Part shown: piece after piece, positions 18,829 through 36,844 of the stretch
How the letters are laid out: each line of letters starts with the position of its first letter
How positions within the stretch are numbered: position 1 is the stretch's first letter
Source of the DNA: Prevotella sp.
GTDB taxonomy: Bacteria; Bacteroidota; Bacteroidia; Bacteroidales; Bacteroidaceae
NCBI GenBank assembly: GCA_017554105.1
Contig: JAFZIY010000031.1
Coordinates: forward strand, 301,524 to 365,523
Length of the DNA: 64,000 nucleotides
Direction of reading: 5' to 3'
The notes under the pieces: model-generated
Told to the model about the DNA's origin: nothing
Seen by the model: the letters and a program-made list of their open reading frames with translations, nothing else
Databases searched by the model: none
Program-made: the position numbers and the translations under genes

Positions 18829-19078
18829 TACCTTTGCAAGTACAATGTAGGTACTCACGTGAAGAGTTGAAAAGGGAACCGGGTGAGAATCCCGGACAGT
18901 CCCGCTGCTGTGAGCCGACCTTAATGACGCAAACAACAAGTCACTGGGTTTATTGATGCTGAGCGTTAGGTGTTTTATGCTTGGTATTTCCTGGGAAGAC
19001 GTTTTGCGATTGTCGGTAAGTCAGAATACCTGCCTGCATGGTCTTCATTCAGGCCTTCCCCCGGGGATGGGAGGCATG
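18829..19078 (+). ncRNA. Cobalamin riboswitch 1
   Basis: A TACCTTTG -7 box (18829-18836) is followed by an AdoCbl-type aptamer. It contains the GGGAACCGGGTGAGAATCCCGG arm, the conserved GTCCCGCTGCTGTGAG core and the B12 box AAGTCAGAATACCTGCC at 19018-19034. Downstream, GCCTTCCC can pair with GGGAGGC; there is no T run, so control of translation is more likely than termination. It precedes the TonB-dependent receptor gene. The aptamer boundaries are approximate. Confidence 0.93.
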
Positions 19079-19100
19079 ATAGTTTAAACACATAGGCAAA

Positions 19101-21152
19101 GTGCTTAGATATTGCGTTGCATTGATAATGCTTCTCTCTTTCCAGTTAGCCTACGGACAGAAGAAGGGTAGCCGACTCGACAGCATTCAAAGTGTCGGGG
19201 AGGTGGTGGTGACCTCGCGTCTGACGTTCCGCGAGGTGATACCATCGCACACGATGAAGGGAGAGCAACTGCAACGGCTCAACACTCATAACATCGCCGA
19301 CGCACTGCGCTACTTCGCGGGACTGCAACTGAAGGACTACGGTGGCGTGGGAGGAATAAAGACGGTGAACATACGCTCGATGGGCAGCAACCATCTGGGT
19401 ATCTTCTACGATGGCATTCAATTGGGTAATGCACAGAACGGACAGGTCGATCTGGGACAGTTCTCAATGGATAACGTTGACGAGATAACGCTATATAACG
19501 GACAGAAGAGCGCCATCTTCCAGCCTGCCTCGGAGTTCGGCAATGCCGGTTCGGTATATATCAAGACACGACGCCCGAAGTTCACTGAGGGAAAGAGAAC
19601 CAACCTGAAGTTCAAGACGAAGTATGGCTCCAGCGACCATTTCCGTTTCTCCACCCTGTGGGAGCAGAAAATATCACGCATGCTGACAAGTTCGGTGAAC
19701 GCGGAGTTCCTCAACTCAAGCGGTAAGTATGACTTCCGTTACCGACGAAAGAATGCCGATGGCACAGTGGCATACGACACCACGGCAACACGTCAGAACG
19801 GTGACATCTGGGCACTGCGCGCCGAGGCGAATATCTATGGTATCTTCAGCGAGGGAGGATGGAACATGAAGGCATACACCTACCACTCCAAGCGAGGTAT
19901 ACCTGGCGCCATCGTCAACAACGTATGGCGGCGCGGAGAGCGACAGTCGGACCACAATACCTTCGTTCAGGCATACGTGAACAAAAGCATAGGGCAGAAG
20001 TTCAGCACCCGACTGCTCACGAAATATGCCCACTATGGCACACACTACATCAACCGAGACACCACCACCCTGCGCGTCGATAACACCTACCGACAGCAGG
20101 AGTTCTTCATCTCCACGTCGAATGTCTATGAGATACTGCCGTTCTGGAGCGCCAGCGTGGCATACGACTTCAAATGGAACAAACTGGATGCTGACATGCG
20201 TAACTTCGTGCATCCACACCGATTGAGCCACTACGCATCTGTTGCCACCGCCTTCAACCACCCGTGGTTCAATGCACAGGGTTCACTGATGATGCAGTTC
20301 GTCGATGACACCCGCCACACCACTGCCAGTCAACAGTCGGCAACCATCACCAAACACCAGTCGGCACTCACGCCGGCATTATTCATCAATGCCTATCCTC
20401 TGAGAAACAAGATATTGTCGTTGCGCGCCTTCGCAAAGAAGAGTTTCCGCATGCCAACGTTCAACGACCTTTACTATACCGACCTTGGCAACGCCTCACT
20501 AAAACCCGAGACGGCACTGCAATACGACCTCGGTTTCGTTATTGAGGCCCCCCTCTCATCCCCCCTGGGGGGGAAGAGTGGTTCCCACAGATGTATAGTT
20601 AGGCGAGTTAGGTTGCAAACCGATGTTTACTATAACTCCGTGCACGACAAGATAGTGGCTTATCCGAAGGGCCAGCAGTTCCGATGGACGATGCTGAACC
20701 TCGGCAAGGTACATATCAAAGGTATCGACGTTGAGGGTGAGATTGACCTTGAGCCGTGGAAAGACGTGCGACTCTCGGGGCGCGTGCAATATACCTATCA
20801 GGATGCACGCGACGTCACTGACCCCACAACACCCTACTATAACGACCAGATACCATATATCCCATGGCACAGCGGCTCGGCAATAGTAGGTATAGGTTAC
20901 AAGCAATGGGACTTCAACTACAGTTTCCTGTATGCCGGAGAGCGCTATAATCAGCAAGAGAACATCATCTACAACTACATGCAGCCATGGTACACCAGCG
21001 ACTTGTCGCTGAGTTACCGCTTCGAGCGCTGGGGCTGTAAGTTCAAGGTTCTGCTGGAAGTGAACAACGTCTTCTCGCAAGATTATGACGTAATCCTCAA
21101 CTACCCGATGCCCAAGCGCAACTATGGCATCTCGCTGGATGTAGGGATATAA
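19101..21152 (+). CDS. btuB: TonB-dependent cobamide receptor (BtuB-like)
   Basis: Predicted outer-membrane receptor that imports cobamides with TonB energy. It has 683 residues and a GTG start at 19101 giving signal peptide MLRYCVALIMLLSFQLAYG. Residues about 30-150 are the plug domain (GEVVVTSR, ALRYFAGLQLKDYGG, NIRSMGSNHLGIFYDGIQLG) and the rest a beta-barrel ending in ...YGISLDVGI. The substrate is inferred from the riboswitch directly upstream and the BtuG/BtuF/BtuC-like genes downstream. At residues about 483-502 (20548-20605) an in-frame C/G-rich repeat encodes APLSSPLGGKSGSHR, probably in a surface loop. Confidence 0.93.
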   Translation: MLRYCVALIMLLSFQLAYGQKKGSRLDSIQSVGEVVVTSRLTFREVIPSHTMKGEQLQRLNTHNIADALRYFAGLQLKDYGGVGGIKTVNIRSMGSNHLGIFYDGIQLGNAQNGQVDLGQFSMDNVDEITLYNGQKSAIFQPASEFGNAGSVYIKTRRPKFTEGKRTNLKFKTKYGSSDHFRFSTLWEQKISRMLTSSVNAEFLNSSGKYDFRYRRKNADGTVAYDTTATRQNGDIWALRAEANIYGIFSEGGWNMKAYTYHSKRGIPGAIVNNVWRRGERQSDHNTFVQAYVNKSIGQKFSTRLLTKYAHYGTHYINRDTTTLRVDNTYRQQEFFISTSNVYEILPFWSASVAYDFKWNKLDADMRNFVHPHRLSHYASVATAFNHPWFNAQGSLMMQFVDDTRHTTASQQSATITKHQSALTPALFINAYPLRNKILSLRAFAKKSFRMPTFNDLYYTDLGNASLKPETALQYDLGFVIEAPLSSPLGGKSGSHRCIVRRVRLQTDVYYNSVHDKIVAYPKGQQFRWTMLNLGKVHIKGIDVEGEIDLEPWKDVRLSGRVQYTYQDARDVTDPTTPYYNDQIPYIPWHSGSAIVGIGYKQWDFNYSFLYAGERYNQQENIIYNYMQPWYTSDLSLSYRFERWGCKFKVLLEVNNVFSQDYDVILNYPMPKRNYGISLDVGI

Positions 21153-21214: not shown

Positions 21215-21872
21215 GGTCTGAAAGACCAACAGAACATAGCCCAGGGCATCGCCCTGGGTGAAAAGACAAGAAAAAAACGCCCTGAAAGGGCAAAAGCAAT
21301 AACAACATGGCACAATCACTTTGCAAATTATACGTTCATATTGTGTTCCATATTAAGACCACAAGTCCAACTATTAAGACTGAACACTTAGAGCGATTAC
21401 ACGAATACATCGGGCAACTGGTGAATACAACTGGCTGCAAAGTAATTCGTGTGGGCGGTATCAACGACCACGTTCATGTTGTTTGTTTGCTTTCAAAAGA
21501 CGTTACCGTGTCACATCTTATTGAAGAACTGAAAAGGAATAGCAGCCGTTGGATAAAGACATTGGATTCCAGATACGCAAACTTTGCTTGGCAAGGTGGC
21601 TATGCAGCATTTTCCATCAGCCAGTCAGTTGTGGAAAAGACAATAGAATATGTTAGCAAACAAGAAGAACATCATCGACAAATGTCATTCAATGACGAAT
21701 ATATTCATTTTCTGGAACTATACCAAATAAATTATAACGAGAAATATGTATTCACAGACTAAGGGTAAGAGAGAATGCTTATATAATGCTTTTGCCCTTT
21801 CAGGGCGAATGCTATTGCGCACTATTACCCAGGGCGCTGCCCTGGGCTGTGTGCTTGTTGCCCTTTCAGGGC
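21215..21872 (+). mobile_element. RAYT element flanked by inverted triple-hairpin REP modules
   Basis: Left hairpins: 21215-21227, 21240-21258 (CCCAGGGC stem) and 21279-21291 (GCCCTGAAAGGGC). Right hairpins: 21794-21806, 21828-21846 and 21860-21872, in mirrored order with matching spacers. The innermost 20 bp (21279-21298 and 21787-21806) are a perfect inverted repeat. The transposase gene lies between them. This is the layout of a REP-associated tyrosine transposase with its REP sequences. Confidence 0.85.
21307..21762 (+). CDS. REP-associated tyrosine transposase (Y1/IS200-like)
   Basis: This is a 151-residue HUH single-strand nuclease. The metal-binding HUH motif is His55-Val-His57 in NDHVHVVC, and the nucleophile is probably Tyr115 in KTIEYVSKQEEHH. 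The length and the C-terminal 'YxxxQxxHH' pattern fit IS200/IS605-type and RAYT transposases. All motifs are intact. The flanking inverted REP hairpins and the lack of classical IS ends favour RAYT. Its 3' end overlaps, by 17 bp, an upstream extension of the next reading frame. It sits inside the B12 operon without breaking a gene. Confidence 0.9.
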   Translation: MAQSLCKLYVHIVFHIKTTSPTIKTEHLERLHEYIGQLVNTTGCKVIRVGGINDHVHVVCLLSKDVTVSHLIEELKRNSSRWIKTLDSRYANFAWQGGYAAFSISQSVVEKTIEYVSKQEEHHRQMSFNDEYIHFLELYQINYNEKYVFTD

Positions 21873-23812
21873 TTTTACTGCTCTCTTCCTGTCGCACCGA
21901 CGACCCTATAATATATTCCACCACATACGACACGGGGGGTGGCACACAACCGAGTGGTGACATCACCGGGATGTATGTGCTGTGTGAGGGTAACATGGGC
22001 AGCAATAAGTGCACTCTCGACTACCTCGACATGACAACAGCACAGTATCACCGCAACATATACTCCGAGCGAAACCCTGAAACAGTGAAGGAACTAGGTG
22101 ACGTGGGCAATGACATCAAGGTATATGGCTCCCGGTTGTGGATGGTCATCAACTGCTCTAACAAGGTAGAGGTTGCCAATGTCAAGACAGCAAAGCGCAT
22201 AGGACAGGTGAATATCCCCAACTGCCGCTATCTCGCCTTCCACGATGGCTATGCATACGTGAGCAGTTTCGCCGGTCCCGTGATGGGCGGTGACATGCAA
22301 CTGGGCCTTGTATATAAGGTGGACACCCTGTCGCTCGAGATAGTAGGGAGCGTGGAAGTGGGCTACCAACCTGAGGAGATGGCGATACTTGACGGTTATC
22401 TCTATGTGGCTAACAGCGGCGGCTATATGCCACCGACCTACGACAATAGGGTGAGTGTTATCAATCTGCACACTTTCAAGGTAGAGCGCACCATCGATGT
22501 TGGACTCAACCTGCACCGATGCCGTGCCGACCGTTACGGACAGTTGTGGGTTACCTCACGAGGAAACTATGAGGATGTGCCTGCAAAGGTGTATTGCCTG
22601 CAACAGAGCAGCGATGGATATGCGGCAGTAGGTGACGAGATTCCGGCATCCATCAGCGACATGTGCATCGTGGGCGACTCCTTATATTATATAGGTACGG
22701 CGTGGAGCGAGATAGAACAGCGCAACACCGTAAGTTACGGTATCATCAACGTGAGAACGCATCAAGTGGTTGCCGACTATCTTAGCACATCACAGGAAAT
22801 AAGTAAGATACGCATGCCTTACGGCATAATAGTGAACCCATACACCAAGGATTTCTATGTGATGGATGCCAAGAACTACGTGTCGAGCGGCGAACTATTT
22901 CACTTCAAGTCTGACGGCACATTCGACTGGAGTGTTCGCACTGGCGACATCCCTGCCCATGCAGTCTTTGTGGGTAGTGAGATGACGTTCGATGACAACA
23001 CTACCCCGCAGACAGCAAGTCCCTATATCCAAGCCGTTGACGAATATGTTCCGGCTCCGGGACAGTTTGTCAATACCCTGCCGGAGGCTACTGCCGATGA
23101 CTCTCCCGAGACAATGGCTACAAAATGCACGCAGGCACTGGCTGCCAATGCCAAAGGAATGGTGACTCTGGGAGGTTATGGAGGATATATCACCTTCCAT
23201 TTTGACCATCCTGTAGTGAACAGACAGGGACAATACGACCTTGCCATCTATGGCAATGCATATGAGGGCAACAGCGAACCAGGCATCGTAATGGTGTCGC
23301 AGGACGTGAATGGTAACGGCAAGCCCGACGACCCCTGGTATGAACTGTCGGGTAGTGCTGATACGGACAGTGTGGGAAAGGTGACCTACAACTATGAAAT
23401 CACCTACACGCGTCAGGAAATGCAGAATATTCCGTGGACGGATAATCAGGGACAAACGGGATATATTCCTCGCAATGGTTACCATACGCAAGAGTATTTC
23501 CCAATGTGGCTTCCCTCACCGCTCACGCTGGGCGGTACACTTCTCCCACGTAACGGTCACCAGGGCACAGATGGGCTTTGGACTCTCGACTACCTGCGCT
23601 TTGGCTATGTGGACAATATGCCCAACAGTGACGAAGAAGGATGTTGCTTCAAGATTGACTGGGCTGTTGACAGCAAACGCCATCCCGTCAACCTAAGTCA
23701 TATAGACTTTGTGCGCATATATAATGCACAGAACCAAGTCTGCGGTTGGTTAGGCGAGACATCCACCGAAATCACAGGTGCTGTAGATTTAGGAGTGGTT
23801 AGTGATAAATGA
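21809..23812 (+). CDS. BtuG-like propeller lipoprotein with extra C-terminal domain
   Basis: Predicted surface lipoprotein, 667 residues from the ATG at 21809. The lipobox is LSSC with Cys28. The frame could open at 21746, but that part overlaps the transposase gene. Residues about 45-395 show repeated propeller blades of YncE type (CRYLAFHDGYAYVSS, PEEMAILDGYLYVAN). BtuG of Bacteroides is such a propeller and binds B12 tightly outside BtuB. Residues about 407-667 form a second domain starting AVDEYVPAPGQF, shared with the gene at 24970. The position directly after the receptor supports a cobamide role. Signal-peptide residues about 7-21 are encoded by REP hairpins of the RAYT element. Confidence 0.85.
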   Translation: MLLRTITQGAALGCVLVALSGLLLLSSCRTDDPIIYSTTYDTGGGTQPSGDITGMYVLCEGNMGSNKCTLDYLDMTTAQYHRNIYSERNPETVKELGDVGNDIKVYGSRLWMVINCSNKVEVANVKTAKRIGQVNIPNCRYLAFHDGYAYVSSFAGPVMGGDMQLGLVYKVDTLSLEIVGSVEVGYQPEEMAILDGYLYVANSGGYMPPTYDNRVSVINLHTFKVERTIDVGLNLHRCRADRYGQLWVTSRGNYEDVPAKVYCLQQSSDGYAAVGDEIPASISDMCIVGDSLYYIGTAWSEIEQRNTVSYGIINVRTHQVVADYLSTSQEISKIRMPYGIIVNPYTKDFYVMDAKNYVSSGELFHFKSDGTFDWSVRTGDIPAHAVFVGSEMTFDDNTTPQTASPYIQAVDEYVPAPGQFVNTLPEATADDSPETMATKCTQALAANAKGMVTLGGYGGYITFHFDHPVVNRQGQYDLAIYGNAYEGNSEPGIVMVSQDVNGNGKPDDPWYELSGSADTDSVGKVTYNYEITYTRQEMQNIPWTDNQGQTGYIPRNGYHTQEYFPMWLPSPLTLGGTLLPRNGHQGTDGLWTLDYLRFGYVDNMPNSDEEGCCFKIDWAVDSKRHPVNLSHIDFVRIYNAQNQVCGWLGETSTEITGAVDLGVVSDK

Positions 23813-23846: not shown

Positions 23847-24602
23847 ATGAAAACAAACAAAATTCTGAATGGTATTATGGCCCTCGCCCTGATTGGCGGG
23901 TCATTTACAGTGATTTCATGTGATGACGACGATGACAACAATGGTGGCTCCAAGGTCGCTGTTGTATCGTTCGAGAACCAGACTCTCAATAGCGATGGCT
24001 ATTGGATTGGAGAAGAGAACAATACCGGCGTTGACGACGGATGGGGTGGCAAGACTTACACCTGCACCTACACGGAGAACGGCCTTACGACAACCTCTCT
24101 CTATTCTGTCTATTATTTCATGGGTATCGGTATCTCTAACCGCACTGCCACTACCTTTGCTGACGATACGGTAACACCTGACCAGTATAACAATGTGACA
24201 GGCAAGGCAAATACCGGTAAGAATTTTGCTGTAGTCTATGGAGATGGGAGCACCATTACCGTTAATAACGCAAACGGTGTGGATATCAAGGGTCTCTACT
24301 TTACCAACTCTGCATACGTGAAGCAGGTGGTGGAAAATGGTAATAAATTTGCCAGAAAGTTTGATTCCGGCGACTATCTGAAGGTTATCATCACCGCTGA
24401 CAATGGCAAGAAGGTGGAGTTCTATCCCGCTGACTATCGTTCAGGCAAAACCATCATAGACAAATGGACATGGCTTGACCTCAGTTCACTGGGTACAGTG
24501 AAGTCGCTGACCTTCACCTTCGACGGAACAGACAAGTCAGGTGACTGGATGAACACACCTACTTACGTTTGCATCGACGATGTGACATACATAGCAAAGT
24601 AA
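23847..24602 (+). CDS. DUF4465 surface lipoprotein
   Basis: This 251-residue lipoprotein has lipobox VISC (Cys25) followed by an acidic DDDDDNN stretch, a layout seen in surface-exposed Bacteroidetes lipoproteins. The rest is one DUF4465 domain (DGWGGKTYTCTYTENG, GLYFTNSAYVKQVV, DKWTWLDLSSLGTVKSLTFTFDG). The same domain occurs near the C-terminus of the giant protein at 26140-32637. It is the third gene after riboswitch 1 and is followed by a terminator, so a part in cobamide capture is likely; direct B12 binding is not shown by the sequence. Confidence 0.88.
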   Translation: MKTNKILNGIMALALIGGSFTVISCDDDDDNNGGSKVAVVSFENQTLNSDGYWIGEENNTGVDDGWGGKTYTCTYTENGLTTTSLYSVYYFMGIGISNRTATTFADDTVTPDQYNNVTGKANTGKNFAVVYGDGSTITVNNANGVDIKGLYFTNSAYVKQVVENGNKFARKFDSGDYLKVIITADNGKKVEFYPADYRSGKTIIDKWTWLDLSSLGTVKSLTFTFDGTDKSGDWMNTPTYVCIDDVTYIAK

Positions 24603-24625: not shown

Positions 24626-24663
24626 AAGCTTATTCCCCACTTTATGGAGAATAAGCTTTTTTT
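24626..24663 (+). terminator. Terminator after the DUF4465 gene
   Basis: A perfect 10-bp stem AAGCTTATTC/GAATAAGCTT is followed by T7. It ends the first riboswitch-controlled unit. Confidence 0.9.
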
Positions 24664-24736: not shown

Positions 24737-24925
24737 TATCTTTGCTCCCAGAAACGTGATTGGTTCGCCCTAAGGCGATTAAAATGGGAATCAGGTGGAA
24801 ATCCTGGACTGTCCCGCAGCTGTAAGTTGCCCTTCATGGTGCAAACAAATGCGTCACTGAACTTTTTCGGGAAGACGTTTGCATCGGCAACAAGTCAGAA
24901 GACCTGCCTCTCACTATTGTTCTTT
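24737..24925 (+). ncRNA. Cobalamin riboswitch 2
   Basis: The -7 box TATCTTTG (24737-24744) is followed by an aptamer with GGGAATCAGGTGGAAATCCTGG, GTCCCGCAGCTGTAAG and the B12 box AAGTCAGAAGACCTGCC (24891-24907). The leader ends 45 nt before the ATG at 24970. It is a second, independent B12-sensing leader in the same locus, and it drives surface proteins rather than a receptor. Confidence 0.93.
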
Positions 24926-24969: not shown

Positions 24970-26067
24970 ATGAAAAACCCAGCTATCGGGGCATTGGTAT
25001 GCCTTTTAGCAGTCGCTGGTGTTATGCCGATTCAGGCTCAGCAGATGACCGACGATGCTGTTCACAGCCAATATTTGTTGGCTGTAGATGAGTATGTACC
25101 TGCCCCAGGACAGTTTATCAACGATTTGCCTGTTTTCGAGACAGGTGATGATGCCGCTTCGATGGCAGCGAAATGCACTGCCGCCATTGCAGGCGACTAC
25201 AGTGATGATGACCACAGCATGATATCGCTTGGTGGTTTCGGAGGATACGTCACCTTCCACTTCGACCATAGCATAGCGAACATCGCTGGAGAACGCGACT
25301 TCTGTATTAGAGGAAATTCCATGCAAAGCCTTATGTTCCCTGAAGTGGAGGGCGGTGCCAGCGAACCAGGCATCGTAATGGTGTCTAAGGACGTTAACCA
25401 CAACAACCTGCCTGACGACCCTTGGTACGAGATATCAGGCAGTGCCGATGTTGACAGCGTGGGAAAGGTGATTTACAACTACGAGATTACATATACCGAG
25501 GCACCCATGCAGGACATACCCTGGACAGACAACAAGGGAGGTAGTGGTGTGGTTGAGCGCAACACGTTCCACGCACAGGAGTATTTCCCACAGTGGCTGA
25601 GTGGTCCACTCACATTCAAAGGCACGCGACTTCCGCAAAACGGATGGTACTTCGTGTCGGGAACCAGAAAGCAATGGGTGCTGATGTTCCTGCGCTATGG
25701 CTATGCCGACAATGTGCCTAACAGCAACGAGGATGGCTGTTCGATAGACATCTCGTGGGCAGTGGATGAGAACCGACAGCCTGTAAGTCTCGATTTCGTT
25801 GACTTCGTGCGCGTCTATACGGGCATGAACCAGACATATCCCCAACTCGGAGAAACCTCGACAGAGGTGGTAGGAGCACACGACCTACACCTCGATGCAT
25901 CGATTAATGCCATTATCGCTTCGGGCATCAATGGCGTTTACGGCAATGGCAAGGCAACGGAGACTGCACGCTACAGCGCCGATGGTACACGTATAGCAAA
26001 GCCTCAGCGCGGACTGAACATCATCAGAATGAGCGACGGCACGGTGCGTAAGGTGTATGTCAAGTAA
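24970..26067 (+). CDS. Secreted protein sharing the BtuG-like C-terminal domain
   Basis: Predicted exported protein of 365 residues with a type I signal peptide (cleavage near IQAQ). Residues about 36-305 align closely with residues 407-667 of the BtuG-like lipoprotein: AVDEYVPAPGQF, FHFDHS, EPGIVMVSKDVN, PDDPWYEISGSAD, LGETSTEVVGA. The last 35 residues are a tail ending GTVRKVYVK, shared with other large surface proteins here and reminiscent of a type IX secretion signal. It lies directly under riboswitch 2, so a cobamide-related role is strongly suggested. The domain function is unknown. Confidence 0.85.
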   Translation: MKNPAIGALVCLLAVAGVMPIQAQQMTDDAVHSQYLLAVDEYVPAPGQFINDLPVFETGDDAASMAAKCTAAIAGDYSDDDHSMISLGGFGGYVTFHFDHSIANIAGERDFCIRGNSMQSLMFPEVEGGASEPGIVMVSKDVNHNNLPDDPWYEISGSADVDSVGKVIYNYEITYTEAPMQDIPWTDNKGGSGVVERNTFHAQEYFPQWLSGPLTFKGTRLPQNGWYFVSGTRKQWVLMFLRYGYADNVPNSNEDGCSIDISWAVDENRQPVSLDFVDFVRVYTGMNQTYPQLGETSTEVVGAHDLHLDASINAIIASGINGVYGNGKATETARYSADGTRIAKPQRGLNIIRMSDGTVRKVYVK

Positions 26068-26139: not shown

Positions 26140-29100
26140 ATGAAACAAAAAGTACTATCATCATTGTTGATGCTGATTACGATGCTGCTCGGAGTGCCTA
26201 TCGAGGCACTTGCCGACCGCGAGGTAAATCAGTTACAATTTGGAAAGCAGACCATAGAGGTCGCCACCGATGAGGTTATTACTTTCTACGACTGGAAAGG
26301 TACGGAAAACATCAGTTCGACATCGAGCAACAACTCGCAGTCGCTGACTGTCTTCAAGCCTGTCGAGGAAGGTAAGTCAATCCAAATCACATTCGAATCG
26401 TGCGATGTTGCCAACGATGGAGCCAGCTGGCCAGGTAAGGTCATCGTCTATGATGGCACACCCGATGCCGACAACTCCTTTACTTGGGCAACCACGACGA
26501 GTGAAGTAAACGCAAGTTCCACCATGCCCGAAGGTACTATCCTTGCGACACTTGACGGCACATACTCGAACCTTACTTATACATCGGGCGTTTCCGATGG
26601 TTCACTTTCTGTCGGTATGTTGTGGCGTTATGCCGCAAGTTGCTCTGGATGGGTGGCAAAGGTTAAGGTGGTGACACTGGAGAACCAGACCGTGACAGGT
26701 GCTGGCTCAAGTTACGACAACGTTACTGCAACCATCACAAAGAAACAAAATGTGGACCTTGCAATGGCTTTCGTCACCACCACTGGTGTAATGAATCCCG
26801 ACAAGGTGACTTCTATCTCATTCAACCTGACGCAGAACGAGGGTATGGTTGACCCCACAGCCCTGAAGCTTTTCTATGGAGACGCAGCCATCAGTGCTAC
26901 TGTTTCCGAGGAAGGTAGCGGTTATAAGTTTGCTCTGGAGCAGGCACTCAGCGACGGAACGAACAACTTCGACATCAAGGGTGACATCCTCGGCACTGCC
27001 GAGATAGGCGCTAAGGTACAACTCGACGTGACGAAGATAGCGACGGCAGGGCAACCCGATGGTGTAAGCCCATTCATAGCAGGCACATCGGTGGCTATCG
27101 AGAATCCTGCCATCGTCATCATGACATCCACCCCACAAACCGTAACAGTGGGCGAGACACCGCTGCAGTTCTATGACGAAGGCGGTAAAGACGGTGGCAT
27201 TGTGTCTAAAACCAATGGTCAGGTGACATTCCTTTCTGGCGTGGATGGCAAGAAAGTAATGGTGGATTTCACCACGAACAACATCTGGCACGGAAGTTAT
27301 TACAATCAGGAACTGCGTATCTATAACGGACAGGCGGTTAGTGAATCCAACCTTATAAAGACATTACAGCAAGGTGAGACAGCCGCCGTACGCTCTACTG
27401 CTGACGATGGCTCGCTGACTGTCGTGCTGTTCAGTGATGCCAGCAACGAGGTTGCCGCTGACGGTTTCGAGGCAGAGGTATCGCTCTTCACTCCGCAGGA
27501 AATGGTTGCAGACGATGTGGTGACCGAGGCGGCAAGCACCGAGACGGTATGTGCAAGCGACGAAAACCAGGCAATGCTTAAGTTGAACGTCAAGACCACA
27601 AATACCGAGCCTGCACTTGTGGCAAGCAAGTTCAACTTCACAACCAACAACACCAATGCCAACGTTACACATGCCGCACTGTATTACACTGCAGGTAGCA
27701 GTGAGATATCAACGGCAGCGTCGAAAAAGATTGGTGAGGTTGATGTCACCGCCGATGCCTTTGAAATATCGACAACAGGCAAGGAAGTGACTCTCGTGGA
27801 GGGCGACAACTACTTCTGGCTTACCTATAACATTGGCGATGAGGTGGTGAACGATGACAAGGTGGGCGCAAGGTTCGAAAGCGTTACATTCACCAACAAC
27901 ACCACCGCGACGGCGACCACAAGTACCGTTGCGGAGCGTACGGTGAAGAACATCGTCCTCTCTTATGCCGATCAGGGAACGGTGACAAAGACTGTCAACG
28001 GATCACTGGCATTTGAGACAAAGCGCACATCAAGCAACTATGCAGAGTATGGAACCGACGACCGCATCAATATCTTCATTCCGAAGAACGACGGCATGGT
28101 CTGCCAGATTGACTTCTCAGAGTTCGACGTGCAGTATGCTTCTACAAGTTACGGTACAAAATCAACCTTCAAGATTTACGCCGGACAGGGCACCAGTGGT
28201 GAACTGCTTTGGGAACTGAATAGCAACGACCAGCAGTCAACAGGTCCTGGACAGACTATCCGCTCTACCGCAGCAGATGGCTCACTGACCATCGTCTTCA
28301 ATCCAAAGTCATCTTACTCATATTATTATAAGGGTTGGAAGTCAACCGTCAGCGAGTATCTGTCGAAGCCGATGGCTGTTACAGAGATAGAGGTGCAGCA
28401 GGCAAGCACTGCCGATGCCTCAATCGGTGCTACCGAACAGGATATTCTGAATGTTAATGTTAAGACTGAAGGAAATCTCGATGCCCTGCAGTTGAGTAAC
28501 ATGAAGATTAACCTGAAAGGTACTGAAGCAAACATCTCAAAGGTCAGCGTATGGAAGGAAGACACGAAACTCGGTGAGGCTGATGCTGCAGCAGAGGTGA
28601 CAGTAACCTTCGACGAGGCAGTTACACTTACCGAGGGTGACAATCTGTTCGTGGTTAAAGCGGATATAAAGGCTGACGCCGAGGAGAACAGCACTATCGA
28701 CGCCAAGTTGGTATCTGTAAATGTCGGTTCTGACATCGAGGCAACCAACGGTGACCCCGAGGGACAGCGCACATTGAAGAACCAGATACTGATGACATCA
28801 GGCAACCATGGTATAGTAAACCTTGGTCTCGGACAGAAAGTTAATCTTTATGACGACGGTGGTCCTGAGGGTGATGGTGCCGATGGAGTGACAGCGACAA
28901 TTACCTTCGCACCAACAGGCGATGCCGACTGCATCAAACTCACCGACAAGGGAATCAGCTTCTCCTACACTGCACACCTTTATATATATAAGGGCAGCGA
29001 AGACCTTGATGAAAACCAGATTGTTCACCTGACAGGATCTTCGGCTAAGTTCGAACCTATCATCTCTGATGCCGATGTCAATGGCGGTAAGATAACCATC

Positions 29101-32100
29101 AAGTATGTCGGCGCGGGCAGTTACCCCAAGCCTAACTTCGCAATGTTGGTTGAGGGTTACAAGAAGACCGATGTGGTGGTTACAGGCGTGACAACCGAAG
29201 ACATCAGTGCCAACGAAGTACTGAAGGGACAGACCGACACCAAGATGCTCAAGATAATGGTAGAGGCTCAAGGCGACCTGACACCTGCAGAGGTGACAGC
29301 CTTTGACATCACCGGCACCGACGGCGAGGCTGTAGAGAACTACCATATATATCAGACAGGTACGACAACGACATTCTCTGCCAACGAGGAATTCAACGGA
29401 AGCTACTCCATCACGAAGTCAGGAACCTACTACTTCTGGCTTACATACGACGTGAAGAGTGACGCAGAAGTAGGACAGACCGCATCGGCAACAGTCAACA
29501 GCATCACCGTTGACGGACAGACAATCACTGTTGAGGAACCTGTAACAGCATCCTTCACCGTGGCAAGCGGTAAGAGCGGCACTTACACCGTAGGCGAAGG
29601 TGGCGACTATGCCACTATCCAAGGCGCTGTCGATGATATCGGTGTACTCGGTATGGATGGTCCTGTGACGCTGAAGATCAAGGCGGGCGAGTACAACGAG
29701 AAGGTACGCATTCCTAACATCAAGGGAATGGGAGCAACCAATACTCTCACCCTTGAGAGCGAAAGTGGTGTACGAGATGTCAAGATATTCCACAACAACT
29801 ACACGACTGGAGGCTACAGCGATGACCAACATAAGAAGGACTATGGCGTAATGACACTTTATCAAGCCAACTACGTCACACTGAAGAACCTCGAAATCTA
29901 CACCACCGACAAGGCTTACAAGGCTGTGGTGATGATTAAGGACGAGAGCCGTCATGCTACGATAGAAAGCTGTTACCTGCATGCTCCTATCTGCACAGCA
30001 AGCAGCGGCGAGGATGTGATGCTAGTAGGACACACCATCATAGACGAGGAGAACAAGAACAACGACTACCTCACTGTGAAGAACTGTCTGCTCGAAGGCG
30101 GTAAGATGGGTGTCAGCATGGGTGGTACCAACTATGTTTCATTGCCCAAGGAAGTAGGTGGCATTATCGAAGGTAACACCTTCAAGAACAACGGCCAGAA
30201 AGCCATCTATGTTATGGACGAGTTGGGTGTTAAGATACGCAACAACATCATAACAATTGATGCTGACGCTGAAACGAAGATCAGCGTGGGTATTCTCGAC
30301 ATGCAGTTGCGCGATGAATACAGTGAGGCGACAGAGATTACGGGCAACATCTTCAATGTGGCACCTAAGACCTACTGCGCCGTTATGAACCTGCGTCAGT
30401 TGGAAGGAACAGTAGATGCACCAGTGCTGATTGCCAACAATGTAATCAACCTGACATCGCTAAATGCAAGCTACTGCGCATTCAAGTTCAATGGATCAAA
30501 GGTGAAGAACACCAATGTCGCCTACAACACTATACGCATGAAGGGCGAGACTGGCGGCGCTGCGTTCTGGGCTTCATCGAAACTGGATGAGGGCTATGGC
30601 AACAACAACATCGTGAACAACATCATCCAGAACGAGACAAACGGATATGCTGTCAATCTCTATAATGATGACAATCTCGGAACAGACAAGATAAACTTCC
30701 AGAACAACGTCATCTATACCGACGGAGAGACATTCTACCGCGCAGCATCAAGCACTTCAGGCGACTTCGCCAGCTTCGTGGAGAAGACGGGTGCCACTGG
30801 TTGTGTGAACAAGAAAGTGACATTCCTCGCAGAGAATGTACTAGAGCCTTCAGATGATATGGACGGTGACCTGACAACAGCAAAGGTTCTGACCTACGTC
30901 ACCACCGACATCACTGGCAAGGAACGTTCGTCAGAGAATCCTACTATCGGAGCATACGAATATGATCCTAATGCCCAAAGTGCTCCTGTGATGCAGGAGA
31001 ATTATCCAAAGGTGATAACAGCACTCGACGGACTTGCCACCATTGCAGTTAAGACCGACCTCGCCGCCACGATTTATTACATCGTGAAGAAGGCTGGCGA
31101 AACAGCACCAACCGACGATGAACTGCTTGACAGCGAACTCTCACAAGACATCTCTGCAAACACCGAGTCGCTGATAAGCATCGACAACCTGGAGGGCGAG
31201 GAGCAATATGTTGTTTACTTCCTACCGGTAAGTCTCAGAGGTGTATTGGGCGTAATGAGTCAGACCGAGACGTTCACGATGGAGGTTACTCCTCCTGTAA
31301 CCGATGCACCGGAGGCTGAAGTTTACATCAACAACTCAACCGATGAGGAAACCATTGAGTTGGGAGAGACCGTAACGCTCATGGCAATGGTACTCGTTGA
31401 CGAACGTGCTGCACCATACACCCTCACATGGATGGATGGCAAGCACAACGTGCTTCTCACCGAGACATTCGATAGCGCCGACGACATAGATGACATCTTC
31501 ATGACAACGGCGACACCGACAGAGTGTACCGACTACATCTTCGTTGTTACCGACAATGCCGAGAAGGGCGACACGGCAACTGTCCGTGCTATCGTAACGG
31601 GTGATCTTCAGATGGCAGACTTCGAGAACCTCTATCTCGACGAGGAGAGTTTCGAGAATGGTACCAACCTGCAACTCGAATCCTTCGTTAGCGGTTCGTT
31701 CAAACTTGACAATGGCGCAATGCCTGAATGGAGTTACTTCTACGACTTCATGTACGCCAACAAGACCGCAACAACATTCTCTAATTACGTGACCGACCAG
31801 TTCAACAATGCTGTCGGCGGTGGCGTCAATGGTTCAGAGAACTACGTTGTGGCTTATCCACAGGGCGGTGGCATACATGTCATGAACAATGCCAATGGCG
31901 ACGTCATCCCAGGTATGTACATCACCAATAACGCATGGGTTGTTGACAACATACTCAACGGTGACGGCATGACAGACGGTGCATTCAAGAAGGGCGACTG
32001 GTTCAAACTGACCATCACTGCCGACAATGGCAACAGCATGGAGTATTATCTCGCCGACTACCGCGCAGAGCAGGAGGCAGACCGCTACTATCTTGACGCT

Positions 32101-32637
32101 TGGCAATGGATTGACCTCAGTCAGTTGGGTACAGTGAAGAAACTCTCGTTCTCGTTCGACGGAACACGTAAGAACACATGGGGCCTGACGACAGCAACTT
32201 ACTTCTGTCTTGACAACCTGGGAGACCAGCGCCCAGAGACAACGGCAACGCTCGAAATCAGCGAAGGCACGACGGCAAGCATTGCCGACGCGTTCACTCT
32301 CGGCGAAACAGGTACCGTGACCTATGCCATTGCCGACCCATTGCCAGATGACCTCGCAGGCATAGTAAGCCTTGATGGTGACATACTCACCGTTGACACC
32401 AATGATGCCAAGGACTTCGAGATTGTCATCAGTGCGACACAGCGTGGCAAGACACAGTACGTGAGATATTCTGTTTCTAAGAGCATGACAACGGGCATCA
32501 TCGAGTTCAATGCTGACGACGAGAACATCGAGGCACGATATACTCTCGATGGTAAGAAGATTACCGATAAGAACCATCGCGGCATCGAGGTCGTTCGCAT
32601 GAAGGACGGCACCGTACGCAAGATGGTGGTTAAGTAA
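26140..32637 (+). CDS. Giant modular surface protein (CUB-like, beta-helix, DUF4465)
   Basis: A 2165-residue protein from the ATG at 26140 (MKQKVLSSLL), with a signal peptide ending near ALA. CUB-like modules with 'RIYNG/IYAGQG/IYKGSE' signatures alternate four times with modules resembling the sialidase N-terminal domain (GDNYFWLTY and the like), to about residue 1150. A right-handed beta-helix region follows (about 1150-1600, starting GGDYATIQGAVDD). After linker domains there is a DUF4465 domain (about 1825-2035) and a C-terminal tail ending GTVRKMVVK. It lies 72 nt after the riboswitch 2 gene with no terminator between, so B12 control probably extends to it. Its role is unknown; DUF4465 links it to the lipoprotein at 23847. 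Confidence 0.85.
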   Translation: MKQKVLSSLLMLITMLLGVPIEALADREVNQLQFGKQTIEVATDEVITFYDWKGTENISSTSSNNSQSLTVFKPVEEGKSIQITFESCDVANDGASWPGKVIVYDGTPDADNSFTWATTTSEVNASSTMPEGTILATLDGTYSNLTYTSGVSDGSLSVGMLWRYAASCSGWVAKVKVVTLENQTVTGAGSSYDNVTATITKKQNVDLAMAFVTTTGVMNPDKVTSISFNLTQNEGMVDPTALKLFYGDAAISATVSEEGSGYKFALEQALSDGTNNFDIKGDILGTAEIGAKVQLDVTKIATAGQPDGVSPFIAGTSVAIENPAIVIMTSTPQTVTVGETPLQFYDEGGKDGGIVSKTNGQVTFLSGVDGKKVMVDFTTNNIWHGSYYNQELRIYNGQAVSESNLIKTLQQGETAAVRSTADDGSLTVVLFSDASNEVAADGFEAEVSLFTPQEMVADDVVTEAASTETVCASDENQAMLKLNVKTTNTEPALVASKFNFTTNNTNANVTHAALYYTAGSSEISTAASKKIGEVDVTADAFEISTTGKEVTLVEGDNYFWLTYNIGDEVVNDDKVGARFESVTFTNNTTATATTSTVAERTVKNIVLSYADQGTVTKTVNGSLAFETKRTSSNYAEYGTDDRINIFIPKNDGMVCQIDFSEFDVQYASTSYGTKSTFKIYAGQGTSGELLWELNSNDQQSTGPGQTIRSTAADGSLTIVFNPKSSYSYYYKGWKSTVSEYLSKPMAVTEIEVQQASTADASIGATEQDILNVNVKTEGNLDALQLSNMKINLKGTEANISKVSVWKEDTKLGEADAAAEVTVTFDEAVTLTEGDNLFVVKADIKADAEENSTIDAKLVSVNVGSDIEATNGDPEGQRTLKNQILMTSGNHGIVNLGLGQKVNLYDDGGPEGDGADGVTATITFAPTGDADCIKLTDKGISFSYTAHLYIYKGSEDLDENQIVHLTGSSAKFEPIISDADVNGGKITIKYVGAGSYPKPNFAMLVEGYKKTDVVVTGVTTEDISANEVLKGQTDTKMLKIMVEAQGDLTPAEVTAFDITGTDGEAVENYHIYQTGTTTTFSANEEFNGSYSITKSGTYYFWLTYDVKSDAEVGQTASATVNSITVDGQTITVEEPVTASFTVASGKSGTYTVGEGGDYATIQGAVDDIGVLGMDGPVTLKIKAGEYNEKVRIPNIKGMGATNTLTLESESGVRDVKIFHNNYTTGGYSDDQHKKDYGVMTLYQANYVTLKNLEIYTTDKAYKAVVMIKDESRHATIESCYLHAPICTASSGEDVMLVGHTIIDEENKNNDYLTVKNCLLEGGKMGVSMGGTNYVSLPKEVGGIIEGNTFKNNGQKAIYVMDELGVKIRNNIITIDADAETKISVGILDMQLRDEYSEATEITGNIFNVAPKTYCAVMNLRQLEGTVDAPVLIANNVINLTSLNASYCAFKFNGSKVKNTNVAYNTIRMKGETGGAAFWASSKLDEGYGNNNIVNNIIQNETNGYAVNLYNDDNLGTDKINFQNNVIYTDGETFYRAASSTSGDFASFVEKTGATGCVNKKVTFLAENVLEPSDDMDGDLTTAKVLTYVTTDITGKERSSENPTIGAYEYDPNAQSAPVMQENYPKVITALDGLATIAVKTDLAATIYYIVKKAGETAPTDDELLDSELSQDISANTESLISIDNLEGEEQYVVYFLPVSLRGVLGVMSQTETFTMEVTPPVTDAPEAEVYINNSTDEETIELGETVTLMAMVLVDERAAPYTLTWMDGKHNVLLTETFDSADDIDDIFMTTATPTECTDYIFVVTDNAEKGDTATVRAIVTGDLQMADFENLYLDEESFENGTNLQLESFVSGSFKLDNGAMPEWSYFYDFMYANKTATTFSNYVTDQFNNAVGGGVNGSENYVVAYPQGGGIHVMNNANGDVIPGMYITNNAWVVDNILNGDGMTDGAFKKGDWFKLTITADNGNSMEYYLADYRAEQEADRYYLDAWQWIDLSQLGTVKKLSFSFDGTRKNTWGLTTATYFCLDNLGDQRPETTATLEISEGTTASIADAFTLGETGTVTYAIADPLPDDLAGIVSLDGDILTVDTNDAKDFEIVISATQRGKTQYVRYSVSKSMTTGIIEFNADDENIEARYTLDGKKITDKNHRGIEVVRMKDGTVRKMVVK

Positions 32638-32656
32638 TAATTTTATCTTTAGTTTT

Positions 32657-32695
32657 AAGGTGTGGTGCAGCAACATGTACCACACCTTTTTTTAT
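32657..32695 (+). terminator. Terminator after the giant surface protein
   Basis: The stem AAGGTGTGGT/ACCACACCTT is followed by a run of T. It closes the riboswitch 2 unit. Confidence 0.9.
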
Positions 32696-32884
32696 TATAT
32701 CAGAGTCTTTTTCTCCCCCAACAACATATGTTTGCGACATATTCTTGCAGTTATCCCCTATTTTGTCGCAAAAAAAGGCGTTTGTCCAAACAAGTACATC
32801 TTTATTTCGTGTACAGTTTACAACAAAAGATTTAAATGAGAGTAATTTTGCACCGAAAATTTGTAAATGCATAAAAGAAAGAAA

Positions 32885-34435
32885 ATGAAAAGTCAATTCA
32901 AGTGGTTTACACTTAGCCTGCTGATTGCAATGATTTTTGGTACACGGATGCAGGCATCAGGAACAACAAAGACAAACCTGAAGAATGAGGAAGGAAATTC
33001 AACTTGCAACGTCCTTTCCTTAAAGAAGTACACATTGGTCACCAAGAATGGAGAAGAGTTTGCATTCAACGGACTGACACTGACACAGGAACTTCCTGCA
33101 AATACAGACTTCTATATCAAGGACAGCGACGGAAAGATTTATTATGGAGGATATCATGGTTGTGAAATCTATGCAGAGAACCATAAGAATCTAAGTACAT
33201 ATTATCCTGTCGAGGACAAAACTGTAACAGAGAAGCCAATGCCATTCAACCTCAGAAAGGCAAACACATGGATATTCACTATTACAGAGCCTGCGAGCGC
33301 GGACGAAACAATTAAGTTGACCGCGGACATACAGAATCCGACAGGTGAAGTAAAATACATGTTTTCAACGAACTACATGGTGGAAAGCGATGAGGTATTC
33401 GACGCAGACGGTAAGATAACGAAGCAATTGTCTGCTGGAAAACCGTTCTTTATCACAAGAGACGACGACTTCGGACTCTTCAATTTGACAGCCGCTGAAA
33501 GTAACGCCCCAGACGGATACCGTTACTGGAAGTTCAGCGAGGATGCTATAGCCGTAGGATACATTCCTGCCAAGGTGATAAACGCATTCTCCGTAAAAGA
33601 TGCTGACCTTTACACCATCACTCTCGACACCGAGAACAAGAAAGTTACTGTTGAGGCTATTCCTACTGTTTATACTCTGGTTGCAGGCAACGATGAGTTT
33701 GCGTTCAACGGACTCACACTCACACAGGAACTTCCTGCACAAACGAAGTTCTACGTCAAGGACAACAAGGGTAATGAGTACCATGGTTCTGAGAGTACAT
33801 TGGAATTAATCATCAGTGCAGAGGAACATGAGAACCTGCCGACGTATGCAGAAGGAAAGAACTTCTACTTCATGAAGGCTAACACATGGGTATTCACTCT
33901 TGCCGAGACTTCAGACGACCTGACTCTGACCGTTGTACCACAATACAAAGGCGAGACAAAGTACATGATAACAGAGTCGCTCGATAAGGAGAGCGAGGAT
34001 GTATTCGTGGACAACAAACTAACGAAGGAAATGACCACCAAGCCATTCTTCATCGTTAGAAGCGATGACTACGGAATTTTCGAACTGACTGCAGTAGAGC
34101 GCAACGACCAGAAAGGATACTATATCTGGGAGTTTGGCAAGGAGAACAACACCATAGGATTCATCATAGGTGAAAGAAGAAACATGTACCGTGTAGAAGA
34201 AGACGGAATATACACCTTCACACTGGATCACGAGCAGAATACCGTATCGTCCATTCTGACATCTAACACTGCTTACAATGGCTCTTCAACCGCAGTGACA
34301 TCAATATATTCAGATGACAATTGGAGTATTGACAAGGATGGGGCATGGTACACCATCGATGGTCGTGAGTGCAACGGCAAACCAACGCAGAAAGGTTTGT
34401 ATATCCACAACGGTCGTAAGGTGACAATAAACTAA
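32885..34435 (+). CDS. Modular surface protein with two repeat modules
   Basis: A 516-residue protein from the ATG at 32885 (MKSQFKWFTL); an ATG at 32867 would add six basic residues. A signal peptide is present. Two modules of about 200 residues (KYTLVTKNGEEFAFNG..., VYTLVAGNDEFAFNG...) share the pattern 'GLTLTQELPA..FYxKD..G..Y', 'KANTWxFTxxE', 'KYMxx', 'DDYG/DDFG', 'YTFTLD'. Five copies of the same module occur in the 2057-residue protein at 42744-48917 on the other strand. The tail ends GLYIHNGRKVTIN. A TAATTTTG box at 32843-32850 may be its promoter. Function unknown; SusE/SusF-like carbohydrate-binding folds have a loosely similar look, but this is not established. Confidence 0.8.
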   Translation: MKSQFKWFTLSLLIAMIFGTRMQASGTTKTNLKNEEGNSTCNVLSLKKYTLVTKNGEEFAFNGLTLTQELPANTDFYIKDSDGKIYYGGYHGCEIYAENHKNLSTYYPVEDKTVTEKPMPFNLRKANTWIFTITEPASADETIKLTADIQNPTGEVKYMFSTNYMVESDEVFDADGKITKQLSAGKPFFITRDDDFGLFNLTAAESNAPDGYRYWKFSEDAIAVGYIPAKVINAFSVKDADLYTITLDTENKKVTVEAIPTVYTLVAGNDEFAFNGLTLTQELPAQTKFYVKDNKGNEYHGSESTLELIISAEEHENLPTYAEGKNFYFMKANTWVFTLAETSDDLTLTVVPQYKGETKYMITESLDKESEDVFVDNKLTKEMTTKPFFIVRSDDYGIFELTAVERNDQKGYYIWEFGKENNTIGFIIGERRNMYRVEEDGIYTFTLDHEQNTVSSILTSNTAYNGSSTAVTSIYSDDNWSIDKDGAWYTIDGRECNGKPTQKGLYIHNGRKVTIN

Positions 34436-34615: not shown

Positions 34616-35770
34616 ATGAGGAAGATTCTTTTTATAGCATTTGCCATTGTCCTGACATTGGCGATAGGAACGGGATGCCGCGGTGTGATGGTGAGCAATG
34701 CCGTGGGCGACACCCTGCAGATGAAGTATGCCGAACGCATAAAGATAGTGGAGTGCGACGGCTATAGTGTTGTTACTCTTGCCGACCCATGGAACGTGGG
34801 AAAGACGCTACATGCCTATCTGCTGGTGCCTTCTGACGGCAAGACGATTTCCGATGACAGTCTGAAAGCACTGCATCCAGGTGCCACAATTGTACACACA
34901 CCACTACGGAAAGCACTCATCGCGACCAGTGTACACTGTGCCCTGACAGAAGAACTGGGTGCCACTGATGCCCTTGGTGGAGTGTGTGACCTGCAGTACA
35001 TCAACCTTCCATGGGTGAAAGAGGGCGTGAAGAACGGCAGAATACGCGACTGCGGCAGTGCCATGAGTCCTACGATAGAAACGATTATCGACCTCGCACC
35101 CGATGCAATCTTTCTCTCTCCATTCCAGAATAGCGGTGGCTATGGTCGCGTCAGCGAACTGAACATACCCATCATCGAGACCGCCGACTATATGGAGACC
35201 TCACCTCTTGGACGTGCCGAGTGGATGCGTTTCTACGGCATGTTGTTCGGAAAGGAGCAGCAGGCTGACTCTTTGTTCAGCGAAGTGGACAGGACATACA
35301 AGGATTTGAAAGAGTTAAGCGTTAAGAAAAGCGAGTCAAAAGACAAGAAAACCATACTCATGGACAAACTGACTGGCTCGGTGTGGTATGTTCCAGGCGG
35401 CAAAAGCACCATAGGACAGATGATCAGCGATGCCAACATCAACTACGCATGGAGCAAGGACGAGTCGAGTGGTTCACTCTCTCTGCCGTTCGAAGCAGTG
35501 CTTGAGGCTGCTATGGATGCCGACATCTGGGCATTCAGATACAACTCGTCGCACGATATCACACTGCGCGAACTGCTCACCGAGAAGGCAGGATACAACC
35601 AGTTCCGTGCCTTCCGCGAGGGTAATGTGTATGGTTGCAACACCTTCAACTCCACATTCTACGAGGACACACCATTCCATCCAGAGAGGTTGCTGCGCGA
35701 TTTCATCTGCATCGCCCACCCAGAAATGAATCTCGGAGAACCAAAGTATTTCATAAAGGCCCCCTTCTAA
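34616..35770 (+). CDS. btuF: Cobamide ABC transporter substrate-binding protein (BtuF-like)
   Basis: Predicted periplasmic, probably lipid-anchored, binding protein of 384 residues from the ATG at 34616, with Cys21 after IGTG. It contains a Fe/B12-type periplasmic-binding fold (PF01497-like): ALIATSVHCALTEELGA, IETIIDLAPDAIFLSP, PIIETADYMETSPLGRAEWM, and a C-terminal FHPERLLRDF helix. The long helical backbone typical of class III binding proteins is at about residues 220-250. A TAACTTTG box (34599-34606) lies just before the start, so the leader is very short. BtuC follows after 42 nt. Cobamide specificity is inferred from the locus; a siderophore is the main alternative. Confidence 0.88.
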   Translation: MRKILFIAFAIVLTLAIGTGCRGVMVSNAVGDTLQMKYAERIKIVECDGYSVVTLADPWNVGKTLHAYLLVPSDGKTISDDSLKALHPGATIVHTPLRKALIATSVHCALTEELGATDALGGVCDLQYINLPWVKEGVKNGRIRDCGSAMSPTIETIIDLAPDAIFLSPFQNSGGYGRVSELNIPIIETADYMETSPLGRAEWMRFYGMLFGKEQQADSLFSEVDRTYKDLKELSVKKSESKDKKTILMDKLTGSVWYVPGGKSTIGQMISDANINYAWSKDESSGSLSLPFEAVLEAAMDADIWAFRYNSSHDITLRELLTEKAGYNQFRAFREGNVYGCNTFNSTFYEDTPFHPERLLRDFICIAHPEMNLGEPKYFIKAPF

Positions 35771-35812
35771 CCTCCCCCCCGTAGGGGAGAGAAATATTAT
35801 TTATAAGATAGA

Positions 35813-36844
35813 ATGAAGACATTGTCGCAGAAAAACGGAATCATGATGGGTGCTATTGTGCTCATTATATTCCTGTTCTTTGTCTTGAACCTGTTGCTCG
35901 GAGCGGCTGACATTCCGGCAAAAGACGTGGTGAGCATACTCTTTGGCAACGAAGACACAGCGCACCCGTCATGGAACTATATCATTCTGAACAACCGATT
36001 GCCACAAGCACTGACGGCGATGTTGTGTGGTGCATCGCTCGCCGTGAGCGGTCTGATGCTGCAAACTGCATTCCGCAACCCATTGGCAGGACCAAGCATC
36101 TTCGGTATCAACAGCGGCGCATCACTCGGTGTGGCACTCGTGATGTTGTTGCTCGGCGGCAGCATAACAGCAGGTTCATTCTCGCTGACAGGTTTCGTTG
36201 CAGTCCTCGTGGCTGCCTTCATCGGTGCCATGGCGGTGATGGCGTTAATAATGTTCTTCTCTACCTTGGTTAAAAACAATGTGATGTTGCTCATCATCGG
36301 TATCATGATAGGCTACATCACATCGGCTGCAATATCACTGCTCAACTTCTTCGCCACCGAGGAGGGAGTGCAGTCGTACATGGTGTGGGGACTGGGCAAC
36401 TTCGGTGGTGTGACGATGCAGCAGATGCCTGCCTTCGCCTCAGTGACAATACTCGGTCTTGTGGCTTCGCTATTGCTGATAAAACCACTCAATGCCCTAC
36501 TCTTGGGCGAACAATATGCAGAAAACTTAGGCATCAACACCAAGCGTGTTCGCAATCACCTGCTCTTTGTCACGGGAGTATTGACGGCGGTAAGCACCGC
36601 CTTCTGCGGTCCTGTGGCATTCATCGGTCTCGCCGTTCCACACATTGCACGAATGCTGCTCGGCACCGAGAACCATCGTCGGCTGCTGCCCGCCACTCTC
36701 TTATGCGGTGCGGCGATAGCCTTGCTTTGCAACATCATATGCGTCCTGCCAGGCAACAGCGGCATCATTCCACTGAATGCCGTCACGCCTATCATGGGCG
36801 CACCAGTGATAATTTACGTCCTTCTGAAACAACGCTCACGATGA
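35813..36844 (+). CDS. btuC: FecCD/BtuC-family ABC transporter permease
   Basis: Predicted inner-membrane permease of 343 residues with about ten membrane helices and the FecCD signatures LRLPQALTAMLCGASLAVSG-like start (NNRLPQALTA), QTAFRNPLAGPSIFGI, and GPVAFIGLAVPHIARMLLG. It should receive cobamide from the BtuF-like protein. No ATPase gene follows: the stop overlaps the prmC start by 4 nt (ATGA). The ATP-binding subunit must be encoded elsewhere or be missing. Confidence 0.9.
   Translation: MKTLSQKNGIMMGAIVLIIFLFFVLNLLLGAADIPAKDVVSILFGNEDTAHPSWNYIILNNRLPQALTAMLCGASLAVSGLMLQTAFRNPLAGPSIFGINSGASLGVALVMLLLGGSITAGSFSLTGFVAVLVAAFIGAMAVMALIMFFSTLVKNNVMLLIIGIMIGYITSAAISLLNFFATEEGVQSYMVWGLGNFGGVTMQQMPAFASVTILGLVASLLLIKPLNALLLGEQYAENLGINTKRVRNHLLFVTGVLTAVSTAFCGPVAFIGLAVPHIARMLLGTENHRRLLPATLLCGAAIALLCNIICVLPGNSGIIPLNAVTPIMGAPVIIYVLLKQRSR

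Follow-up and report, generated by a model that had tools for sequence, protein, structure and literature searches.

The best explanation of the locus, which we hold to be fairly probable as a whole, is that it comprises two cobamide-capture sets, each with its own cobalamin riboswitch upstream, and that set 1 is lipid-anchored, whereas the proteins of set 2 end in a tail that would take them to the cell surface by the type IX secretion system (T9SS). The locus lies in a stretch of 64,000 nucleotides of a Prevotella genome, here called the window. In set 1, riboswitch 1 is followed by genes for BtuB, BtuGH and BtuJ, a lipoprotein-type arrangement that also includes an IS200-type transposase gene. 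In set 2, riboswitch 2 is followed by a BtuH protein gene, the gene of a giant protein of 2165 residues and a terminator-like hairpin; neither protein has a lipobox, and both have a C-terminal tail.

Two riboswitch-led gene sets

The features of set 1 and the start of set 2 are as follows (positions are those of the window).

18829-18836, TACCTTTG box of riboswitch 1, matching the two-part promoter pattern with 1 mismatch
18832..19051, plus strand, cobalamin riboswitch 1 (RF00174, 100.9 bits)
19101..21152, plus strand, BtuB-type TonB-dependent receptor, 683 aa (Plug 9.1e-16; TIGR01779 9.5e-30, under that model's cut-off)
21307..21762, plus strand, IS200-like Y1 transposase gene (PF01797 2.7e-21)
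21746..23812, plus strand, BtuGH lipoprotein with a BtuG propeller at about 21968-22957 (8blw 4e-93, residues 70-682) and a BtuH domain at about 23033-23788 (7biz 1.1e-49, residues 426-682)
23847..24602, plus strand, BtuJ-type DUF4465 lipoprotein, lipobox VISC (PF14717 1.9e-39; 9fct 1.9e-12)
24626..24658, plus strand, terminator-like hairpin and T-run 3' of set 1, seen by eye and not listed by the terminator scan
24737-24744, TATCTTTG box of riboswitch 2, seen by eye
24744..24925, plus strand, cobalamin riboswitch 2 (RF00174, 100.7 bits)

Both riboswitches score above the RF00174 gathering score of 31.5, and two further cobalamin riboswitch matches over the cut-off lie elsewhere in the genome. 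Together with the Plug and DUF4465 matches (the latter 5.2e-48 in the giant), these scores confirm what the earlier note had observed, namely two B12 riboswitches accompanied by the genes that it named. The same note was correct in seeing a BtuG-like propeller in the protein at 21746, whose propeller is homologous to BtuG1, but it overlooked the second domain of that protein, a homolog of the BtuH domain of 7biz. The true start of BtuGH is probably at about 21809. The BtuJ-type protein extends only 4 residues beyond its DUF4465 domain; both this protein and the giant combine DUF4465 with the conserved loop tyrosine of BtuJ, as judged from the PF14717 matches and alignments.

Set 1 resembles locus 1 of B. 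thetaiotaomicron, where btuB1 is BT1489, BtuG1 carries a fused BtuH domain (btuGH, BT1490; PMC10404256) and BT1491 is BtuJ1 (PMC12751083): both loci have btuB, a btuG-btuH fusion and btuJ, place a riboswitch before btuB and encode lipoproteins. The window differs in that a transposase gene separates btuB from btuG and that a second riboswitch precedes the tail-bearing BtuH and the giant. The transposase falls slightly short of the NF033573 cut-off (53.9 bits against 55) and is the single such match in the whole genome; a REP-associated transposase was ruled out on that single match and on a score of 23 bits for the corresponding model, whose cut-off is 80.

The set 2 proteins

Set 2 comprises the following features.

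24970..26067, plus strand, stand-alone BtuH-domain protein without lipobox (8blw 1.5e-59; 7biz 3.3e-37; alignment), with the BtuH domain at about 25081-25884 and a sorting-type tail at 25945-26064
26140..32637, plus strand, giant, 2165 aa, without lipobox, counted from ATG 26140 (the ORF as called mechanically opens at TTG 26095)
26227..29538, plus strand, four tandem units of ~280 aa with approximate limits, each combining a CUB-like part with a BNR_assoc_N part (PF14873 5.2e-24 in 4 stretches; CUB 0.046, under the cut-off)
29650..31455, plus strand, right-handed beta-helix region (PF13229 1.2e-6)
31615..32226, plus strand, DUF4465 domain of the giant with the loop tyrosine kept (TATYFCLDN; PF14717 5.2e-48; 9hmu 1.7e-23)
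32515..32634, plus strand, C-terminal sorting-type tail of the giant (tail model A5, see below)
32657..32688, plus strand, terminator-like hairpin 3' of the giant, 13 pairs and a T-run (terminator scan)

The protein at 24970 has a domain of the B12-binding type of BtuH2 (PDB 7biz). It differs from BtuH2, which is a lipoprotein with PKD domains (PMC8941943), in that it stands alone, has no lipobox and bears a tail. We had considered AVDEYVPAPGQF as a new domain and dropped this candidate, as the profile and structure-chain matches in both window proteins identify it as the BtuH domain. The claim of new B12-related domains does not hold for DUF4465 either: both domains are already published B12 binders, the first as BtuH (PMC8941943) and the second as BtuJ (PMC12751083 and PMC13398666). 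The absent lipoboxes and the sorting-type tails of the set 2 proteins had been overlooked in the earlier note.

The repeat array of the giant occupies its first ~1130 residues, and its units detect one another in profiles built from a 14-row alignment (the window and 13 relatives). The N-terminal array or the helix occurs in 19 frames, all of which contain DUF4465; this is by construction, because the loci were fetched by DUF4465. Among 16 same-family frames with the giant's N-terminal array, 12 have a BtuH gene at most 200 nt away (upstream in 11, downstream in 1). With one place counted per frame and additional domains of the same frame dropped, 42 of 57 DUF4465 frames (47 genomes) have a cobalamin riboswitch on their own strand no more than 15 kb upstream, compared to ~0.5% expected by a rough estimate; of the 15 frames without such a riboswitch, 5 sit at most 3 kb from where their contig begins. 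For DUF4465, the co-occurrence that the earlier note proposed to survey is borne out. Because DUF4465 frames are tied to riboswitches in this way and the loop tyrosine is kept, the giant is likely to act in cobamide capture, as had been suggested; its domain differs from BtuJ proteins (9fct, 9i2l, 9hmu), with which it shares the domain and the loop tyrosine, in lying within a 2165-residue multi-domain protein, whereas the solved BtuJ chains have 256 and 305 residues.

Alternatively, the giant could be mainly an adhesin or glycan binder, in which DUF4465 has lost B12 binding or serves another ligand. The CUB-like/BNR_assoc_N units and the beta-helix do make up most of the protein, and the second binding aromatic, in the DE-helix, seems by our reading of the alignments to be Trp, where solved relatives have Tyr. 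We nevertheless regard this alternative as unlikely, given the retained loop tyrosine, the BtuH genes that adjoin most of the related array frames, the cobalamin riboswitch upstream of the giant in the window and the finding, reported in PMC13398666, that DUF4465 proteins down to 16% identity bind B12.

Lipobox or tail among relatives

DUF4465 is present in 47 of 119 genomes of a first set and in 95 of 249 genomes of a second, with two genomes common to both, and loci were fetched from 139 of the 140 DUF4465 genomes. With lipoboxes called by a text pattern, not SignalP, and a tail defined as at least 40 residues beyond the domain (which takes in a few dockerin-like ends), the 166 DUF4465-ending frames in the loci of these 139 genomes include 91 with a lipobox and no tail, 69 with a tail and no lipobox, none with both and 2 with neither; a further 4 frames, 3 of them cut at the N-terminus and 1 lacking a stop, were left out. 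BtuH and BtuG follow this lipobox-or-tail pattern, less perfectly. Specifically, the 87 BtuH-ending frames divide into 44 with a lipobox only, 27 with a tail only, 1 with both and 6 with neither (excluding 8 frames that lack a stop and 1 truncated frame), and the 75 BtuG-ending frames into 43, 14, 1 and 4, respectively (excluding 10 that lack a stop and 3 truncated ones). The BtuH frame with both marks rests on an implausible upstream start, and 4 of the 6 with neither have a lipobox by eye that the pattern missed, which leaves two real exceptions (L115 and L119). Three of the 4 BtuG frames with neither also have a lipobox by eye; the one with both (L058) stands.

Tail-bearing DUF4465 frames have a median length of 662 residues, with 33 of 72 longer than 1000, compared to a median of 276 and 0 of 93 for tail-less frames (lengths run from stop to stop, and about 3 are clipped by contig ends). 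Mapped on a FastTree phylogeny of 160 DUF4465 domains, the lipobox/tail class requires at least 13 changes, 5 of them forced by well-supported branches, compared to ~53 in shuffles. A tree of 79 BtuH domains requires 5 changes, 2 of them forced, and in the BtuG tree the tail-bearing members form one side of a single branch. Additionally, wherever BtuG is tail-bearing, the DUF4465 of the same locus is tailed as well (17/17); in loci with a tail-less BtuG, DUF4465 is tailed in 19, short in 43 and mixed in 1.

We take IPR026444 to be the T9SS sorting domain. Section 8 of PMC12751083 assigns, among 824 DUF4465 proteins, 229 to IPR026444, 88 to IPR013424, 275 to lipoproteins and 170 to the periplasm, without co-occurrence; we therefore dropped the view that the split is wholly unreported, as its DUF4465 part is already in that section.

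The tail most likely directs the set 2 proteins through the T9SS. On SprA (2643.7 bits) and PorU (1019 bits, including neighbours in the frame), the window genome has the secretion machinery, and it has 7 TIGR04183 matches over the cut-off. SprA was found in 45/47, 32/47 and 34/46 DUF4465 genomes in three batches. In 28 SprA-negative genomes, a count that excludes G041 (61% complete, with tails present and a SprA match absent), tails occur in 0/33 DUF4465, 0/27 BtuH and 0/5 BtuG frames. SprA-positive genomes have 71 tailed and 60 short DUF4465 frames, 28 tailed and 23 short BtuH frames, and 16 tailed and 43 short BtuG frames; for BtuG the difference between SprA-positive and SprA-negative genomes is not significant (P = 0.32).

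Tail model A5, built from 18 tails of B12 proteins and used with a match threshold of E up to 0.05, gave 10-71 matches per genome in 10 genomes with SprA and a single match in total in 14 without it; the comparison is confounded by genus, as the 10 positives all come from the genus of the window and the 14 negatives all from other genera. Of the window genome's 54 matches, 2 are rows of the model itself, as is one match each in G054 and G060. PorU was found in 10/10 and 0/14 of the same genomes, respectively. Curated models recognize many tails at the same place in relatives: at E up to 0.01, 16 of 38 aligned DUF4465 tails match TIGR04183 and 15 match PF18962; 2 of the 38 are dockerin-like. 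The set 2 proteins share with type A cargo a C-terminal tail, the absence of a lipobox and a genome with SprA and PorU, but their tails are short, and neither the giant's tail nor the BtuH protein has a C-terminal match to TIGR04183 or PF18962.

That the curated models miss the window tails would fit proteins that stay in the periplasm as signal peptidase I substrates, with a tail that is no secretion signal and a role as periplasmic B12 buffers, and the 170 DUF4465 proteins counted as periplasmic by their signal in section 8 of PMC12751083 point the same way. We think this improbable: the A5 matches follow SprA (with the genus confounding noted above), none of the 160 classified DUF4465 frames that bear a lipobox or a tail bears both, and 16 of 38 tails at the same place in relatives match a curated T9SS model.

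Extent of set 2 and the proposed route of capture

Three genes follow set 2.

32867..34435, plus strand, exported repeat protein P0007, with its own TAnnTTTG box at 32843-32850 and a hairpin and T-run after it, by eye
34616..35770, plus strand, BtuF-like lipoprotein (PF01497 5.1e-27), with its own TAACTTTG box at 34599-34606, by eye
35813..36844, plus strand, BtuC-like permease (PF01032 4.5e-78)

TAnnTTTG is a Bacteroidetes promoter element. Riboswitch 2 probably governs two genes only, those for BtuH and the giant, because a hairpin follows the giant and TAnnTTTG boxes precede the genes at 32867 and 34616; we hold this with moderate confidence. BtuF and BtuC are probably transcribed apart from set 2, and the protein at 32867 is probably outside it. 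A lone terminator-like site is no proof, because the scan of the region gives 25 such sites compared to 15.6 in shuffles. The two-part promoter pattern has 21 matches in the window compared to 5.1 in shuffles; it lists riboswitch 1 and misses riboswitch 2 and the boxes at 32843 and 34599, so that separate promoters for the 32867 and BtuF genes are weakly indicated. A single operon from riboswitch 2 to BtuC, as implied by the extent that the earlier note gave the locus, is improbable: all genes from 24970 to 36844 share a strand, and BtuF lies close behind the capture genes in L041, L052, L059 and L206, but against it stand the 13-pair hairpin, a second hairpin and T-run near 34478-34511 after the 32867 gene (by eye) and the two boxes, neither of which the two-part pattern lists. 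Riboswitch control of a surface set, as first proposed, is considered probable for BtuH and the giant and not for all genes up to 36844, and the earlier interpretation as a whole is partly supported.

For the 32867 protein, the best relative was a repeat protein at 0.0024, which is not convincing, and no Pfam or NCBIfam family matched at 0.1. BtuF likely starts at the ATG at 34616 rather than at the ORF start at 34604. Inspection by eye of the ORFs of 120 aa or more listed from 36700 to 50000 revealed no BtuD ATPase.

On the two-set reading, scarcity of B12 would let both riboswitches permit expression. Set 1 would supply the familiar lipid-anchored system of BtuB receptor, BtuGH and BtuJ. In set 2, the tail of BtuH and the giant would take the place of the lipid anchor and lead to export by the T9SS. 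Type A tails are cut off by PorU, and the cargo then becomes attached to A-LPS or is set free (PMC10202324); PorU may likewise cut the set 2 tail, leaving the protein linked to surface LPS or released. Set 2 would then bind cobamide farther out and pass it to BtuBG, and BtuF and BtuC would complete the uptake.

Gut communities are shaped by competition for B12, and the Bacteroides proteins that have been studied for their part in its capture are lipoproteins. Export of set 2 by the T9SS would mean that Prevotella-type bacteria capture B12 via a different surface route and that the BtuBG model with its lipid-anchored BtuG lid has to be revised where BtuG itself is tailed; it would also provide a likely secretion route for very large DUF4465 proteins and for a short C-terminal tail unmatched by the curated T9SS models used. 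More tentatively, and with somewhat less than even confidence, we suggest that Prevotella-type bacteria rebuilt B12 capture on type IX secretion: in BtuG, BtuH and DUF4465 proteins alike, a T9SS tail would have replaced the lipid anchor, and the repeat-stalk giants would reach far out to catch B12, possibly while linked to LPS or after release, and would correspond to the BtuJ that Bacteroides carries on vesicles.

In the open-licence literature, we found no published report of a tail-bearing BtuH, a tail-bearing BtuG or the giant. Neither 'type IX' nor 'T9SS' appears in PMC13398666, PMC12751083 or PMC6143338 (main text), and 'type IX' is absent from PMC10404256 and PMC8941943; in the relevant passages of PMC12578637, BtuG and type IX both occur and are handled separately. 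The host genome comprises 3.12 Mb in 32 contigs, and Prevotella sp. UBA4330, the sole named relative in which the DUF4465 region of the giant was found, is 86% identical in that region.

A third cobalamin riboswitch and a fourth, weaker match

Outside the window, the genome that contains it carries two further cobalamin riboswitch matches at fetched loci:

L076 (contig C23), 9849-10290: third cobalamin riboswitch, with counterparts at loci L212, L213, and L227
L077, 741-988: fourth cobalamin riboswitch match, weaker (35.2 bits)

In four genomes (L076, L212, L213, and L227), the third riboswitch adjoins the same sigma-factor gene; after the riboswitch come a stretch that is conserved in part and a hairpin with a T-run. 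The fold z of the own-genome copy (L076) is -3.2, and an Rfam scan there returned no family above its own cut-off. Downstream of the third riboswitch, no obvious coding gene was found on the same strand. A small RNA may be the target controlled by the third riboswitch.

Downstream of the L077 match lies a gene for a 501-aa protein that, by eye, resembles a membrane transporter.

Surroundings of riboswitch 1 and BtuC

Directly upstream of riboswitch 1 lies a repeat:

Window 18607-18703: inverted repeat with G+C-rich arms of 28 nt

By eye, pieces resembling it also occur within btuB (near 20550) and past btuB (near 21160).

The next frame after the BtuC-like permease gene is methyltransferase-like. 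Inspection by eye of the ORFs of 120 aa or longer 3' of BtuC (window 36845-50000) revealed no BtuD ATPase.

Protein endings and a protein matching the 32867 protein

At the end of some DUF4465 or BtuG proteins (loci L038, L039, and L052), dockerin-like repeats replace the sorting tail; the ending of the L052 BtuG was read by eye. The two short DUF4465 paralogues at loci L066 and L067 lack both a lipobox and a tail.

The exported repeat protein encoded from window position 32867 is matched in part by a larger protein:

Window 42744-48917 (-): 2057-aa protein

Five stretches of this protein match the 32867 protein, and its C-terminal tail is of the same kind.
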